Positions 26,651 to 32,788 of a stretch of 64,000 bases of DNA are shown here, piece by piece. The notes under the pieces are model-generated. The model did not search any database, had not been told where the DNA came from, and saw only the letters and a program-made list of their open reading frames with translations. Location of the stretch: NCBI GenBank assembly GCA_947482825.1, contig CANKMT010000014.1, positions 1 to 64,000 on the forward strand, in the 5' to 3' direction. The DNA is from Betaproteobacteria bacterium (GTDB lineage Bacteria > Pseudomonadota > Gammaproteobacteria > Burkholderiales > SG8-39). The translations under genes and the position numbers were made by a program. Within the stretch, counting starts at the first letter, position 1. The number at the start of each line of letters is the position of its first letter.

Positions 26651-28500
<1,850 letters not shown>

Positions 28501-28551
28501 TTAATTATGGGTTTCGTCAGTCTACTGATTTTGTAAGAGAAATATTTTCTT

Positions 28552-28580
28552 GGAACTTTTCGCATTGGAGGCCACTCATA
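28552..28580 (+). promoter_or_regulatory. Candidate sigma-E (RpoE)-type promoter
   Basis: GGAACTT at 28552-28558 is an exact match to the E. coli sigma-E -35 element; TCATA at 28576-28580, after a 17-base spacer, fits the TCxxA -10 element. It points into the hemB-engB gap on the plus strand, where no protein gene starts. Transcription would begin near 28586. Confidence 0.5.
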
Positions 28581-28585
28581 TCCAC

Positions 28586-28690
28586 AGGCGATGCGATTCG
28601 TCTCCCGCTTCTCCTCCCTGAGCGGGAAGCCTTAATTCCAAGTTAAGGCGTTTTAGCCCCCGGTTTACTCCCCTTTACCGGGGGTGTTTT
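28586..28690 (+). ncRNA. Candidate small RNA with CU-rich anti-Shine-Dalgarno loops
   Basis: About 105 bases fold into three consecutive hairpins: TCCCGCT/AGCGGGA (28603-28627) with loop TCTCCTCCCTG, a perfect GCCTTAA/TTAAGGC (28629-28649), and the terminator stem CCCCCGGT/ACCGGGGG (28657-28684) with loop TTACTCCCCTTT. Two loops expose CU-rich runs complementary to Shine-Dalgarno sequences, as in trans-acting sRNAs with CCUCCUCCC motifs. A sigma-E-like promoter lies just upstream and two plus-strand terminators follow, yet both flanking genes are on the minus strand. I know no named family that it matches. Confidence 0.5.
28657..28690 (+). terminator. Rho-independent terminator, plus strand, of the sRNA candidate
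   Basis: CCCCCGGT-N12-ACCGGGGG followed by TGTTTT. The T-rich side exists only on the plus strand; on the minus strand the stem is followed by CTAAAACG, so it does not serve engB. Confidence 0.8.
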
Positions 28691-28696
28691 GTCTTC

Positions 28697-28730
28697 CCCG
28701 CGAGCCGTTAATTCGGCTAGCGGGTTTTTT
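28697..28730 (+). terminator. Second plus-strand terminator overlapping the engB 3' end
   Basis: CCCGCGAGCCG-TTAATT-CGGCTAGCGGG followed by six T residues; one mismatch in the 11-bp stem. It covers the engB stop codon but is oriented on the opposite strand, backing up the first terminator. Confidence 0.75.
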
Positions 28731-29343
28731 CTTCCTCCAGCCACCCGTCGATGTGGTCCCGGGCCTCTTCGACGCTCTGCCGGGTCTGGCTGGAAAAAAG
28801 CATGCACTCACCGTGGATGCCCAGCGCGGCAAGGTCCTTGCGCGCAGCGGCAATCGTGCGGCCCTGCTCGCTCTTGGTCAGCTTGTCGGACTTCGTGAGC
28901 AGCACGAGCAACCGCCGCTGCAACGGTACCAGCCATTCGAGCAATTGGCGGTCCAAAGACGTGAGCGGACGGCGCGAGTCCATCAGCGAGACGACGCCAA
29001 GCAGCGTGCGGCGTGTCTGCAGGTAGCCTGCTACAAGTTTGCCCCAGTCGTCCCGCACGCCATGCGGAACCTTGGCGTAGCCATAGCCCGGCAGGTCCAC
29101 CAGCCTTGCATGCTCGCCGAAAGAAAAGAAATTGATCAGCTGGGTGCGGCCCGGCGTCTTGCTGACGAATGCAAGGCGGCGCCTGTTGGCCAGCACGTTC
29201 AGCGCGCTCGATTTGCCGACGTTCGAGCGGCCGACAAACGCCACTTCCGGAAGCTCGTCCTGCGGCAAGCCTTCGAGCTGGCTTGCCGAGATCAGGAAAC
29301 GAATGTCCGAAAATGCGCGGGAGAGCGGCTTGGGTGCGGCCAT
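28717..29343 (-). CDS. engB: Ribosome-biogenesis GTP-binding protein EngB (YihA/YsxC)
   Basis: The 208-residue GTPase has G1 Gly-Arg-Ser-Asn-Val-Gly-Lys-Ser-Ser near residue 37, G3 Asp-Leu-Pro-Gly-Tyr-Gly, G4 Thr-Lys-Ser-Asp and G5 Ser-Ser-Gln-Thr. EngB is needed for late 50S subunit assembly and is usually essential. It is divergent from the cytochrome c4 gene, a neighbour pairing common in proteobacteria. Confidence 0.96.
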   Translation of the reverse strand: MAAPKPLSRAFSDIRFLISASQLEGLPQDELPEVAFVGRSNVGKSSALNVLANRRRLAFVSKTPGRTQLINFFSFGEHARLVDLPGYGYAKVPHGVRDDWGKLVAGYLQTRRTLLGVVSLMDSRRPLTSLDRQLLEWLVPLQRRLLVLLTKSDKLTKSEQGRTIAAARKDLAALGIHGECMLFSSQTRQSVEEARDHIDGWLEEEKTR

Positions 29344-29370
29344 TGGGGAAACGATAAGATGTTATAGAAT
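29343..29370 (+). promoter_or_regulatory. Candidate promoter for cytochrome c4
   Basis: TTGGGG (29343-29348), a 16-base spacer and TAGAAT (29365-29370) resemble a sigma-70 promoter in the 59-base engB/cytochrome c4 gap. A TATAGA reading two bases upstream is an alternative -10. Confidence 0.4.
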
Positions 29371-29402
29371 AACGGGTTTAGACCGCTATCGATGGAGAAA
29401 TC

Positions 29403-30056
29403 ATGAAGCGATTTCTGGCGCTCGCCGCCGGCGCGGCCCTGATCGCCGCAGGTTCGGCCCTTGCCGCGGATGCCCCCGCGAAGAAGGAAGCGCCCAAGGC
29501 GGACCCGGCCAAAGGCCAGGCGATCGCGACCCAGGTCTGTGCCGCGTGCCACTCGGCCGACGGCAACAGCGTGGCGCCCGCCAACCCCAAGATCGCGGGG
29601 CAGTTCCCCGAGTATCTGCACAAACAGCTTGCCAACTTCAAGCCGCAGAACGGCAAGAAGGCCGAACGCGAGAATGCGGTGATGGGGGGCATGGTGGCCA
29701 ACCTGTCGCCGGAGGACATGAAGAACCTCGCCGCGCATTACGCCGGCCAGAAGCTCAAGCCCTCGGCGGCCAAGGACAAAGCCCTCGCCGCTGCCGGCCA
29801 GAAGCTCTGGCGCGGTGGCAACGCGGCCACCGGAGTGCCTGCGTGCGCAGGCTGCCATGGGCCGGATGGCCTGGGGATCCCGGCACAGTACCCGCGGATC
29901 GCCGGGCAATACGCCGAATATGTCGAGCTGCAGTTGAAGTCCTTCCAGGCGGGCCAGCGCGCCAATGACGCCAACGGCATGATGCGCGGAGTTGCAGCGC
30001 GCATGACCGAGAAGGAAATGAAGGCGGTGGCCGAGTACGCGGCCGGATTGCGTTAG
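29403..30056 (+). CDS. Diheme cytochrome c4
   Basis: The 217-residue precursor has a signal peptide (1-21, ending Ala-Leu-Ala), a short Lys/Pro/Ala linker, and two class I heme modules: Cys46-Ala-Ala-Cys-His50 and Cys148-Ala-Gly-Cys-His152. Axial methionines lie in Met-Gly-Gly-Met (about 94-97) and Met-Met-Arg-Gly. Cytochrome c4 is a periplasmic, often membrane-associated carrier feeding cbb3-type or other terminal oxidases. Confidence 0.94.
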   Translation: MKRFLALAAGAALIAAGSALAADAPAKKEAPKADPAKGQAIATQVCAACHSADGNSVAPANPKIAGQFPEYLHKQLANFKPQNGKKAERENAVMGGMVANLSPEDMKNLAAHYAGQKLKPSAAKDKALAAAGQKLWRGGNAATGVPACAGCHGPDGLGIPAQYPRIAGQYAEYVELQLKSFQAGQRANDANGMMRGVAARMTEKEMKAVAEYAAGLR

Positions 30057-30196
30057 CGCCCGCGGGTTAGCAGGACACAGGCCCCGCTGGGCGAGGTGAG
30101 AAGGGGCGGGCCGGCACCTGTTCGGCCTGCCCTTCTTGCGTCTGGCGAGCGGGCCTTGGAATAAACTGCGCGAATCCGATGTTCGGAGGGGGGGCT

Positions 30197-30874
30197 ATGA
30201 GTGAACCGACACGCGCGGTCAAGGTATGGGACCTGCCCGTCCGCCTCTTTCATTGGCTGCTGGTGGCGCTGTTCCTGTTCAGCCTCCTGTCCGGGAAGAT
30301 GAAGGGCAACTGGATGGAGTGGCACATGTATTCGGGTTTTGCCATCCTCGCACTGGTGATTTTCCGCATCCTCTGGGGATTCGCCGGCAGCACGCACGCG
30401 CGCTTTTCCAGTTTTTTGGCCGGCCCCGGTGCCTGCCTGCGCTTTGCCAAAAGGTTACTTTCGAAGGCGCCAGCCTACGTCGCCGGCCACAACCCGATCG
30501 GCGGCTGGATGGTGATCATCCTGCTGCTTTCCCTGCTCTTGCAGGCGGGGACGGGCCTTTTCGCCAACGACGACATCTCCATCGAAGGACCACTCTACAA
30601 GTTCGTGAGCAAGGAAATGTCCGACCGCCTGACGGCGATCCACTACTACAATTTCAACGTGATGGTCTTCTTCGTGTTCACGCACGTAGCCGCGGTCGTT
30701 TTCCACGTTTTCGTGAAGAAAGAAAACCTCGTGTCGGCGATGTTCACTGGCACGAGAAACCTCGACGCGGCCACCGAAGTGCCGGCCGCGAGGTTTGCCA
30801 GTTCCTGGCTTGCGTTGATCCTTTTCGCGTTGGCGCTTGTCGCCGTTTACCTGGTCGTCAAACGACCTTTCTGA
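30197..30874 (+). CDS. Cytochrome b561-family membrane protein
   Basis: This 225-residue protein opens with Val-Trp-Asp-Leu-Pro-Val-Arg-Leu-Phe-His-Trp, the first heme b helix of the b561/hydrogenase b-subunit group, and has about four transmembrane helices with paired histidines (His-Trp, Trp-His, Ala-Ile-His-Tyr, Thr-His). It probably moves electrons between the quinone pool and a periplasmic partner; a cytochrome c' gene follows after 10 bases. Superoxide oxidase (CybB) is a related possibility. The start is the ATG at 30197, preceded by GGAGG. Confidence 0.88.
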   Translation: MSEPTRAVKVWDLPVRLFHWLLVALFLFSLLSGKMKGNWMEWHMYSGFAILALVIFRILWGFAGSTHARFSSFLAGPGACLRFAKRLLSKAPAYVAGHNPIGGWMVIILLLSLLLQAGTGLFANDDISIEGPLYKFVSKEMSDRLTAIHYYNFNVMVFFVFTHVAAVVFHVFVKKENLVSAMFTGTRNLDAATEVPAARFASSWLALILFALALVAVYLVVKRPF

Positions 30875-31511: not shown

Positions 31512-32012
31512 GTGAACGATGGCCAGCGAATCATCGAACTTATTCCGCGCCTGCGGCGCTACGCGCGCGCGCTGGTCGGGGATCGCGCGCGAGCCGACGA
31601 CCTCGTGCAGGACACGCTCGAGCGCGCGTGGAACAAGTTCCACCTCTGGCGACCGGGTTCGGACCTGCGCGCCTGGTTGTTCACGGTCATGCATAACGTC
31701 CACGTAAATCAGGTGCGCGCCTCGCGCGATCACGCAACTCTCGATGACGAAGGCGAAGAGATGGCCGTGGCGCCGGTGCAGGGGGCAGCGCTCGAGATTC
31801 GCGACCTCGAGCGAGCGCTCGCGCTGATCCCCGCCGAGCAGCGTGAAGTGCTGCCCCTGATCGCTCTCGAGGACATGAGCTACGCCGAAGTCGCGAGCGC
31901 GCTTGGTATCCCGATAGGCACGGTCATGTCGCGCCTTTGCCGCACGCGAGAGAAGCTGCGCGGGATGATGTACGGCGTACCCGTGAATACAAAGCTGCAA
32001 CTGGTCAAATGA
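31512..32012 (+). CDS. ECF sigma factor (RpoE-like)
   Basis: The 166-residue protein has only sigma regions 2 and 4: region 2 with Arg-Ala-x-Asp-Leu-Val-Gln-Asp-Thr-Leu-Glu-Arg-Ala-Trp and Leu-Phe-Thr-Val-Met-His-Asn, region 4 with Ala-Glu-Gln-Arg-Glu-Val-Leu, Tyr-Ala-Glu-Val-Ala-Ser-Ala-Leu and Gly-Thr-Val-Met-Ser-Arg-Leu. The start is GTG. It overlaps the anti-sigma gene by four bases and is followed by msrPQ, so its regulon probably includes periplasmic protein repair. Confidence 0.93.
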   Translation: MNDGQRIIELIPRLRRYARALVGDRARADDLVQDTLERAWNKFHLWRPGSDLRAWLFTVMHNVHVNQVRASRDHATLDDEGEEMAVAPVQGAALEIRDLERALALIPAEQREVLPLIALEDMSYAEVASALGIPIGTVMSRLCRTREKLRGMMYGVPVNTKLQLVK

Positions 32013-32788
32013 ACGTCAACGTGCATTCGTCAGTCACCGAAGCCGAGTTGCTCGCGTACGTGGACGGCCAGTTGCCCGGGACGCGGGTGCCCGACGTGGA
32101 AACGTGGCTCGCCGCTCACCCTGAAGAGGCCGAGCGCATCGCCGCGTACCGGCGCCAGAACGAGGAATTTCGCGCGCTGTTCAACCCGGTGCTCGACGAG
32201 ACCGTGCCGGCAAGGTTGCAGCAGGTGGCCACGCGCGCTTCACGGTTGCGAAATTACGCGGTCGCTGCTGGATTCACGTTGCTAGGACTCGCCGTTGGCA
32301 TCATGGCCGGATGGCATTTGCATGCGCAGCGTGCACCAGCCGCGGCCAGCGGCATCGGCAGTGCAAGAAATGCCGCGGTCGCGCACGCGACCTACTCACC
32401 CGAAGTCCGGCATCCCGTCGAAGTCGGCGCCGACCAGGGAGCGCATCTCACTGCGTGGCTCTCCAAGCGGCTCGGCACAACACTGCGTGCGCCAAAGCTC
32501 GAGGCCAATGGGCTCAACCTCGTTGGCGGGCGCCTGCTGCCTGGGGAAGCCACGCCCGCAGGCGGACCTTCACCGGTGGCGCAGTTCATGTACCAGACGC
32601 AAGGCGGGCGCCGGCTCACGCTGTATGTGCGTACCGAGGCGGCGAACAACCAGACCGCGTTCCGCTACGCGACCGAAGGCAACGTCGGTGTGTTTTACTG
32701 GATCGATCGCAACGTGGGCTACGCGCTCTCGTCGGCGGACCTGAACCGGGAAGAACTTCTAGCGGTCGCCAATACGGTCTACAAGTAG
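32009..32788 (+). CDS. Membrane anti-sigma factor without cysteines
   Basis: The 259-residue protein has a cytoplasmic helical N-terminus starting Glu-Ala-Glu-Leu-Leu-Ala-Tyr-Val-Asp-Gly-Gln-Leu, a single transmembrane helix at about 83-102, and a periplasmic domain of about 155 residues. This is the layout of RsiW/COG5662-type anti-sigma factors. There is no cysteine in the whole protein, so the His-x3-Cys-x2-Cys zinc switch of ZAS anti-sigma factors is absent and the signal must be sensed otherwise, for example by the periplasmic domain or proteolysis. Confidence 0.85.
   Translation: MNVNVHSSVTEAELLAYVDGQLPGTRVPDVETWLAAHPEEAERIAAYRRQNEEFRALFNPVLDETVPARLQQVATRASRLRNYAVAAGFTLLGLAVGIMAGWHLHAQRAPAAASGIGSARNAAVAHATYSPEVRHPVEVGADQGAHLTAWLSKRLGTTLRAPKLEANGLNLVGGRLLPGEATPAGGPSPVAQFMYQTQGGRRLTLYVRTEAANNQTAFRYATEGNVGVFYWIDRNVGYALSSADLNREELLAVANTVYK

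Follow-up and report, generated by a model that had tools for sequence, protein, structure and literature searches.

A putative sigma-E-controlled small RNA of the anti-hemB family between hemB and engB and its possible counterpart at the polA–engB locus

The gap between hemB and engB in a betaproteobacterial genome encodes a member of a known Rfam family of small RNAs (sRNAs), RF02837 or anti-hemB. Comparison with related genomes makes it probable that this sRNA acts in trans, that RpoE drives it from GGAACTT-N17-TCATA as a transcript of ~107 nt, held by Hfq and acting with its CU-rich loops on ribosome-binding sites, and that its locus is the counterpart of the polA–engB locus of ErsA and Spot 42. 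The family itself is nothing new; it is in Rfam, and the papers found give neither a function nor a regulator for it. What is new is the regulator proposed here by comparison, an apparent exchange of promoters between lineages and a suggested link to the sRNAs of the polA–engB locus. If this reading is correct, envelope stress can be named as the regulator of anti-hemB in many betaproteobacteria, the failure of its Burkholderia member ncS04, the only one studied, to respond is explained, and the family becomes linked to ErsA, sX13 and Spot 42. It would also provide a natural case of an sRNA whose body was kept and whose promoter was exchanged, and several separately named sRNAs may then share one old stress-controlled locus.

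The element and its family

The window, meaning the whole stretch of DNA analysed, is 64 kb long. On the plus strand of its hemB–engB gap, GGAACTT is followed by 17 nt and TCATA, next by four hairpins, the last of them a terminator, and then by a second terminator:

27484..28485, minus strand: hemB (porphobilinogen synthase), divergent neighbour (NF006762, 499.4 bits)
28552..28558, plus strand: GGAACTT, putative -35 element of a sigma-E (RpoE/AlgU) type promoter, from the sequence, with the geometry kept in relatives and the same motif before rpoH
28576..28580, plus strand: TCATA, putative -10 element 17 nt 3' of the -35; relatives have TCTTA, TCTGA, TCATA and others
28586..28692, plus strand: predicted sRNA of the anti-hemB family, ~107 nt (the promoter gives its inferred start and the terminator its end; RF02837 match; ncS04 has 105 nt)
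28586..28603, plus strand: 5' hairpin, beyond the Rfam model except for its 3' end, recognized by covariation
28604..28626, plus strand: CU-rich hairpin 1 (CCCGCTTCTCCTCCCTGAGCGGG), loop able to pair with Shine–Dalgarno sequences, from sequence and alignment
28610-28618, plus strand: TCTCCTCCC inside CU-rich hairpin 1, from the sequence
28629..28649, plus strand: hairpin 2, with both-side changes in five of seven pairs
28657..28692, plus strand: terminator with the second CU-rich loop (UUUACUCCCCUUUA); hairpin 28657-28684 with CTCCCC in the loop, then T-rich
28697..28730, plus strand: second, back-up terminator; hairpin 28697-28724, then T's; overlaps the 3' end of engB and is hardly conserved
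28717..29343, minus strand: engB (yihA/ysxC), convergent neighbour (TIGR03598, 225.1 bits)

The coordinates, the promoter letters and the signals for a plus-strand transcript are present as the original prediction described them. Its three stems are all there, but it missed a fourth, the 5' hairpin at 28586-28603. Both hairpins of its two consecutive terminators are present as well, but the second is hardly conserved, a terminator-like hairpin standing at that place in 3 of 28 sources, the window included. Folding of 28580-28735 yields -65.1 kcal/mol compared with -44.0 ± 3.4 for 200 shuffles (z -6.2). A terminator scan of 27000-30200 found six against 3.6 ± 2.0 expected, so the scan alone is weak evidence.

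From this layout, RNA polymerase carrying RpoE would start at ~28586 and transcription would stop at the terminator, ~28692, producing an RNA of ~107 nt with four hairpins. Hfq would hold the sRNA at its U tail and the two CU-rich loops would cover the ribosome-binding sites of target mRNAs, such that envelope stress would lead, via the sRNA, to less synthesis of certain proteins. The locus would be the betaproteobacterial counterpart of the polA–engB locus, the site of ErsA in Pseudomonas and, in E. coli, of Spot 42.

The sole Rfam match at cut-offs in the whole window is RF02837 ('Burkholderia RNA 7'), at 28601-28692 on the plus strand. It scores 67.1 bits against a cut-off of 49.5 and is full length, with likeness in sequence and structure over all 81 positions of the model (1-81); the 5' hairpin of the window lies beyond the model. 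The element also shares the position for which the family is named, on the opposite strand beside hemB. RF02837 is found above cut-off in 54 of 61 genomes searched, the source genome of the window included, with weak second matches in several of the 61. The candidate sRNA of the original prediction therefore stands as an sRNA, but as one belonging to an already known family, anti-hemB/ncS04. Other identities were rejected: RydC, LhrC, ar14 and c4-a1b1 were all far below cut-off, CcsR/alpha-r14 'CCUCCUCCC' RNAs being represented by ar14 at 22.2 bits against 58.8, and for Spot 42 (RF00021) the scan of the window, which returned RF02837 only, gave no match. No match to the sRNA region was found in the plasmids searched.

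The best described member is ncS04 of Burkholderia cenocepacia J2315, an RNA of 105 nt whose 3' end was mapped by RACE and dRNA-seq (PMC5688073). Like the window element, it is a plus-strand gene of about this length sitting between two minus-strand genes (PMC4603805). Hfq binding of ncS04 is cited (PMC5688073, PMC4603805), and its function is given as unknown (PMC5688073); binding of the window RNA to Hfq would follow this precedent. An 'Anti-hemB' entry is listed for B. pseudomallei (PMC3521395). In a review devoted to the sRNAs of the Burkholderia cepacia complex (PMC10987360), a word search returned neither ncS04 nor hemB, and the main text of PMC2864571 does not mention anti-hemB.

The structure is conserved. 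In an alignment of 47 sequences, 93.4% of the cells of a four-helix structure with 25 pairs are paired, and changes on both sides are seen in 16 of the 25; the shuffled mean is 7.9, none of 500 shuffles is as high, and sliding the pair partners yields at most nine such pairs. The most telling variation is in the 5' hairpin, where all six pairs have both-side changes and 94.3% of cells are paired in the 47 sequences, and hairpin 2 has such changes in five of its seven pairs. CU-rich hairpin 1 is invariant in five of six pairs and its loop is variable at two positions, a constancy due in part to selection, as it was this hairpin that served to find most of the copies. The Rfam search and the stem covariation that had been proposed as checks thus both came out in favour of the element. 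Loss of the stems and promoter in relatives with the same hemB–engB synteny had been named as grounds for abandoning it, and both are conserved there.

The promoter and its sigma factor

Upstream sequences were collected from every copy with the conserved hairpin among the matches listed of a pattern scan, giving 149 copies in 148 sources, of which one is the window and 147 come from a set of 150 loci (L011, L022 and L023 yielded none). The copies are nearly all betaproteobacterial, with group labels assigned from record titles and in proportions unlike those in nature. Two have titles that stand apart: L108, a metagenome-assembled genome whose title names Klebsiella pneumoniae, shares its sRNA region with the betaproteobacterial L030, so that its public label looks wrong, and L099 is titled Gammaproteobacteria. 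Nitrosospira briensis (L076) has two copies of the sRNA 123 bp apart.

Among these listed matches, 67 of the 146 copies with enough upstream sequence have GAAC-N17..22-TC at the right distance, and the spacing is 18 or 19 nt in 64 of the 67; dinucleotide shuffles give 4.6 ± 1.8, with a maximum of 12 in 200. Removal of four duplicates leaves 64 of 142 distinct listed copies compared with ~5 in shuffles. For the -10 element, TCTTA, TCTGA and TCATA predominate, both in relatives and in the gammaproteobacterial matches described below. By its sequence and its conservation, a putative RpoE-type promoter stands at the place expected for the sRNA. Copies of this class have hemB nearby in 58 of 65 cases (presence, with orientation untallied) and both hemB and engB in 56 of 65.

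The form is unevenly distributed. Counting the first copy per source among the matches listed, it is present in 24 of 27 members of the group of relatives, with GAAAC in two more, in 10 of 12 Rhodocyclales and in 13 of 15 Nitrosomonadales, Gallionellaceae, Methylophilales, Thiobacillus and allies. The Oxalobacteraceae have it in one of five, the other four showing GAAAC, as does the one locus from Neisseriales, and loci without a group assignment have it in 16 of 30, three of them duplicates of relatives. In contrast, it occurs in none of the 20 Burkholderiaceae sensu stricto (s.s.), which unlike the window all carry GGTATATSATASC upstream, ten of them with a GAAAC-N-TC variant. Only one of 37 Comamonadaceae has it; one has GAAAC and 29 have a sigma-70-like -10, a class whose pattern list was chosen after the sequences had been seen and which is descriptive only. 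In many Burkholderiaceae s.s. GGTATATSATASC, seen for example in L042, L054 and L057, forms part of a palindrome, GGTATATCATACC, and might serve as a promoter element or as a site for a repressor.

That the sRNA is sigma-E-driven, as originally proposed, is supported by comparison, not by experiment, through this excess over shuffles, the motif before rpoH and 31 of 39 gammaproteobacterial loci; for the members in Burkholderiaceae s.s. and Comamonadaceae such control is doubtful.

These two lineages lend some colour to another explanation, a constitutive housekeeping anti-hemB sRNA whose GGAACTT box is unused under stress. Their upstream sequences would suit it, and ncS04 measured by qPCR showed no significant change in any of the seven conditions tabulated, a behaviour unlike that predicted for the window RNA (PMC5688073). 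The same source describes B. cenocepacia sRNAs as largely uninduced by short stress exposures, SDS among them (PMC5688073). However, ncS04 comes from a lineage mostly without the GGAAC form, whereas other lineages keep GGAAC at a fixed distance far beyond what shuffles yield. The ncS04 result itself does not speak in favour of control by RpoE. We regard a constitutive RNA as improbable, and control by RpoE in the lineages that keep the form as the better reading.

The motif also stands before rpoH, the classic sigma-E target. In the source genome (5.06 Mb), GGAACTTN{16,17}TCWNA occurs three times, at the sRNA, 67 nt before the rpoH ATG and inside a 208-aa ORF; the reversed control pattern occurs seven times. 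Across 41 genomes GGAACTTN{16,17}TCTKA occurs 30 times, 11 of these at the sRNA; the reversed control is met 56 times there, so the motif is not enriched genome-wide. Of 30 relatives, 22 have GAAC-N18/19-TC upstream of rpoH, and in 13 of the 22 the form is GGAAC. In most of them the TC of the -10 falls inside a half-site, CACTC, resembling what we take to be CIRCE, and hence only GAAC and its distance are informative at rpoH. By reading, GGAAC-N-TCTAA (or TCGAA) precedes the CIRCE-like half-site in six of eight Burkholderiaceae s.s., and G/TGAAC does so in nine of ten Comamonadaceae. These lineages therefore mostly keep the motif at rpoH and have another sequence upstream of the sRNA, in keeping with the unresponsiveness of ncS04. 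The overlap or abutment of the sigma-E-like rpoH promoter with the half-site, presumably a site for HrcA, in most betaproteobacteria examined (L214-L271) suggests joint control of rpoH by RpoE and HrcA. Before rpoE itself, 30 loci were examined over 400 nt, L173 among them being misplaced; two have the motif and neither case is convincing, so that autoregulation of RpoE is not visible.

A different sigma factor of the extracytoplasmic function (ECF) group could drive the same sRNA instead of RpoE. GGAAC is a usual -35 for several ECF groups, and an ECF sigma factor gene lies 3 kb from the sRNA, at 31512, its best domain match being the PhyR sigma2 domain; at least 15 of 41 genomes have an ECF-like match on the same contig no more than 8 kb from the place of the sRNA. 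The -10 elements of the EcfG group read CGTT, though, whereas those of the sRNA are mostly of the RpoE/AlgU form. A similar promoter geometry precedes rpoH and the gammaproteobacterial copies at polA–engB, and the source genome has an RpoE gene of its own (TIGR02939, 324 bits). Another ECF factor is accordingly unlikely, if a little less so than a constitutive RNA, and RpoE is the preferred candidate. The ECF gene at 31512 is followed by an ORF without a family match, the pair extending over 31512-32788.

Possible targets

Anti-Shine–Dalgarno action of the two loops, as in the original prediction, is plausible, and RNAs of this kind typically act so; tests for a specific target class were, however, negative. 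The loop-1 complement AGGGAGGAG-N3-10-ATG was found, among the matches listed, before 70 genes from 90 loci, 11 of them for binding proteins of a group that we take to be TctC/Bug (members grouped by blastp) and 29 with signal-like N-termini. A control Shine–Dalgarno, AAGGAGGAG, gave 15 and 32, respectively, of 62 genes from 70 loci, likewise among the matches listed and with some ORFs in both sets possibly spurious; Fisher p is 0.27 and 0.29, i.e. there is no enrichment. Solute-binding proteins were thus rejected as a target class, the seeming enrichment having gone against this control. For the loop-2 complement TAAAGGGGA-N2-9-ATG, 21 genes from 30 loci were recovered and one pair only grouped together.

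MicA and RybB of enterobacteria are made under sigma-E, bound by Hfq and repress envelope genes, and their loci are unrelated to that of the window. The window RNA would work likewise, but nothing found here points to porins as its targets. The best duplex energy of loop 1 averages -11.6 at 27 starts of porins (PF13609) versus -15.0 at 29 rpoE starts, all crudely chosen. Other betaproteobacterial sRNAs with CU-rich loops, for which occlusion of ribosome-binding sites has been proposed, are S17 of Bordetella pertussis and, in Burkholderia, the RF02278 double-hairpin RNAs such as ncS27 (PMC5688073, PMC11722255). These belong to a different Rfam family, without a match in the window, and to different loci.

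The figures for rpoE are only a hint that the sRNA may feed back on it. Considering the nearest start only, the duplex energy of loop 1 is -12.6 for rpoE (27 starts) and -7.1 for rpoH (28), and complements of at least seven in a row occur, at approximate starts, in 7 of 52 for rpoE, 2 of 127 for hemB, 0 of 93 for engB, 4 of 82 for cytochrome c4 and 0 of 28 for rpoH. Outside Burkholderiaceae s.s. and Comamonadaceae, 13 of 35 rpoE starts have CAGGG, compared with 0 of 17 within these two (Fisher p 0.0045), a difference that was found after looking, was counted by reading and concerns rows related by descent in which the groups are lineages. Of 973 mechanical ORF starts 4.3% have CAGGG, and the rpoE start of the source genome (L160) is without it.

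The polA–engB locus of gammaproteobacteria

RF02837 was sought in 274 class-level genomes (Gammaproteobacteria of GTDB, betaproteobacteria included) and matched at E <= 0.001 in 124 of them, 14 above the Rfam cut-off. As 3 of 14 control genomes also match below cut-off, weak RF02837 matches alone mean little. From the gammaproteobacteria 40 loci were taken, mostly the best-scoring, and 39 counted after exclusion of L342, from the same order as the window. The sigma-E geometry is found in 31 of the 39 against 1.6 ± 1.2 (maximum 6) in 300 shuffles, and 28 of the 31 share the same distance of 18 nt. At its cut-off, Rfam assigns the sRNA to RF02837 at 11 of these loci and to no family at the remaining 28.

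The surroundings are also shared. Within the stretches taken, polA is present in 26 of 39 and engB likewise in 26, and 35 of the 39 have at least one of polA, engB and cytochrome c4, the last label being our own for a search with the di-heme cytochrome c of the window at 29403. The usual order is polA(+), sRNA(+), engB(-), inverted in L332 and L337. The window sRNA, ending at ~28692 on the plus strand with the minus-strand engB ending at 28717, is convergent with engB as at this locus; upstream, where polA would stand on the same strand, there is hemB on the minus strand. The place of polA in gammaproteobacteria is occupied in betaproteobacteria by hemB, which was found in none of the 39 gammaproteobacterial loci.

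This bears on the family name, which implies a cis-antisense regulator of hemB. The sRNA does lie upstream of hemB on the opposite strand, and hemB is near most betaproteobacterial copies, but the start of the RNA would be ~100 nt away from the hemB start codon, on its upstream side, with transcription leading away from the gene. Loci in gammaproteobacteria have polA and not hemB, and 10 of 49 copies with a sigma-70-like or unclassified upstream have neither hemB nor engB, although the stretches examined may be short. Cis-antisense action on hemB is very improbable and was rejected on the direction of transcription and the gammaproteobacterial loci; regulation in trans, by base pairing of the loops, would remain the mode of action.

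In E. coli the place is polA(+), spf(+), yihA/engB(-), so Spot 42 (spf) resembles the window RNA in locus and orientation. Unlike it, Spot 42 forms its own Rfam family, RF00021, and the E. coli stretch has no RF02837 match at the Rfam cut-off. Spot 42 is regulated by CRP. ErsA of Pseudomonas aeruginosa lies in the polA–engB intergenic region (PMC8575079) and its expression is described as 'strictly dependent on' sigma-22 (PMC7565897). It is thus alike in place, in dependence on an RpoE-type sigma factor (predicted for the window RNA) and in being a stem-loop RNA of similar size, 132 nt, a likeness drawn from place and description. An early table has an sRNA, SPA0122, beside PA5492/engB, annotated 'Spot42' (PMC3349714), which is taken to be ErsA. 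sX13 of Xanthomonas, 175 bp downstream of polA, has no sequence similarity to Spot 42 (PMC3771888). By its description it is like the window RNA in having three stems; their apical loops are rich in C and repress mRNAs that carry G-rich motifs. Unlike the RNA proposed here it works without Hfq, and no sigma-E promoter is mentioned in that description (PMC3771888).

We infer one old envelope-stress-driven sRNA locus, of which anti-hemB would be the betaproteobacterial form and which would imply common descent with ErsA. A literature search, with subscription journals mostly outside it, returned no paper with both 'anti-hemB' and 'ErsA', and among the matches listed on engB, hemB and sRNAs no title concerns such a link. 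A bolder version is held tentatively, being slightly harder to believe than to doubt. According to it, a single ancient sRNA gene, driven by an RpoE-type factor and tail-to-tail with engB, was common to beta- and gammaproteobacteria; its descendants would be anti-hemB, ErsA and many unannotated polA–engB RNAs, perhaps sX13 and Spot 42 too. The promoter would have been exchanged in Burkholderiaceae s.s. and Comamonadaceae, and in the lineages keeping sigma-E the loop (CCUCCCUGA) may pair with the rpoE ribosome-binding site (the CAGGG of 13/35 versus 0/17), amounting to negative feedback.

Other arrangements of the family were also seen. L307 and L309 have tandem RF02837 copies above cut-off with a tmRNA gene ~1.5 kb away and neither polA nor engB found, and in some gammaproteobacteria, at G259:C33 and G351:C3 (L338 and L339), weak matches to RF02837 stand in arrays, with four as the largest number.
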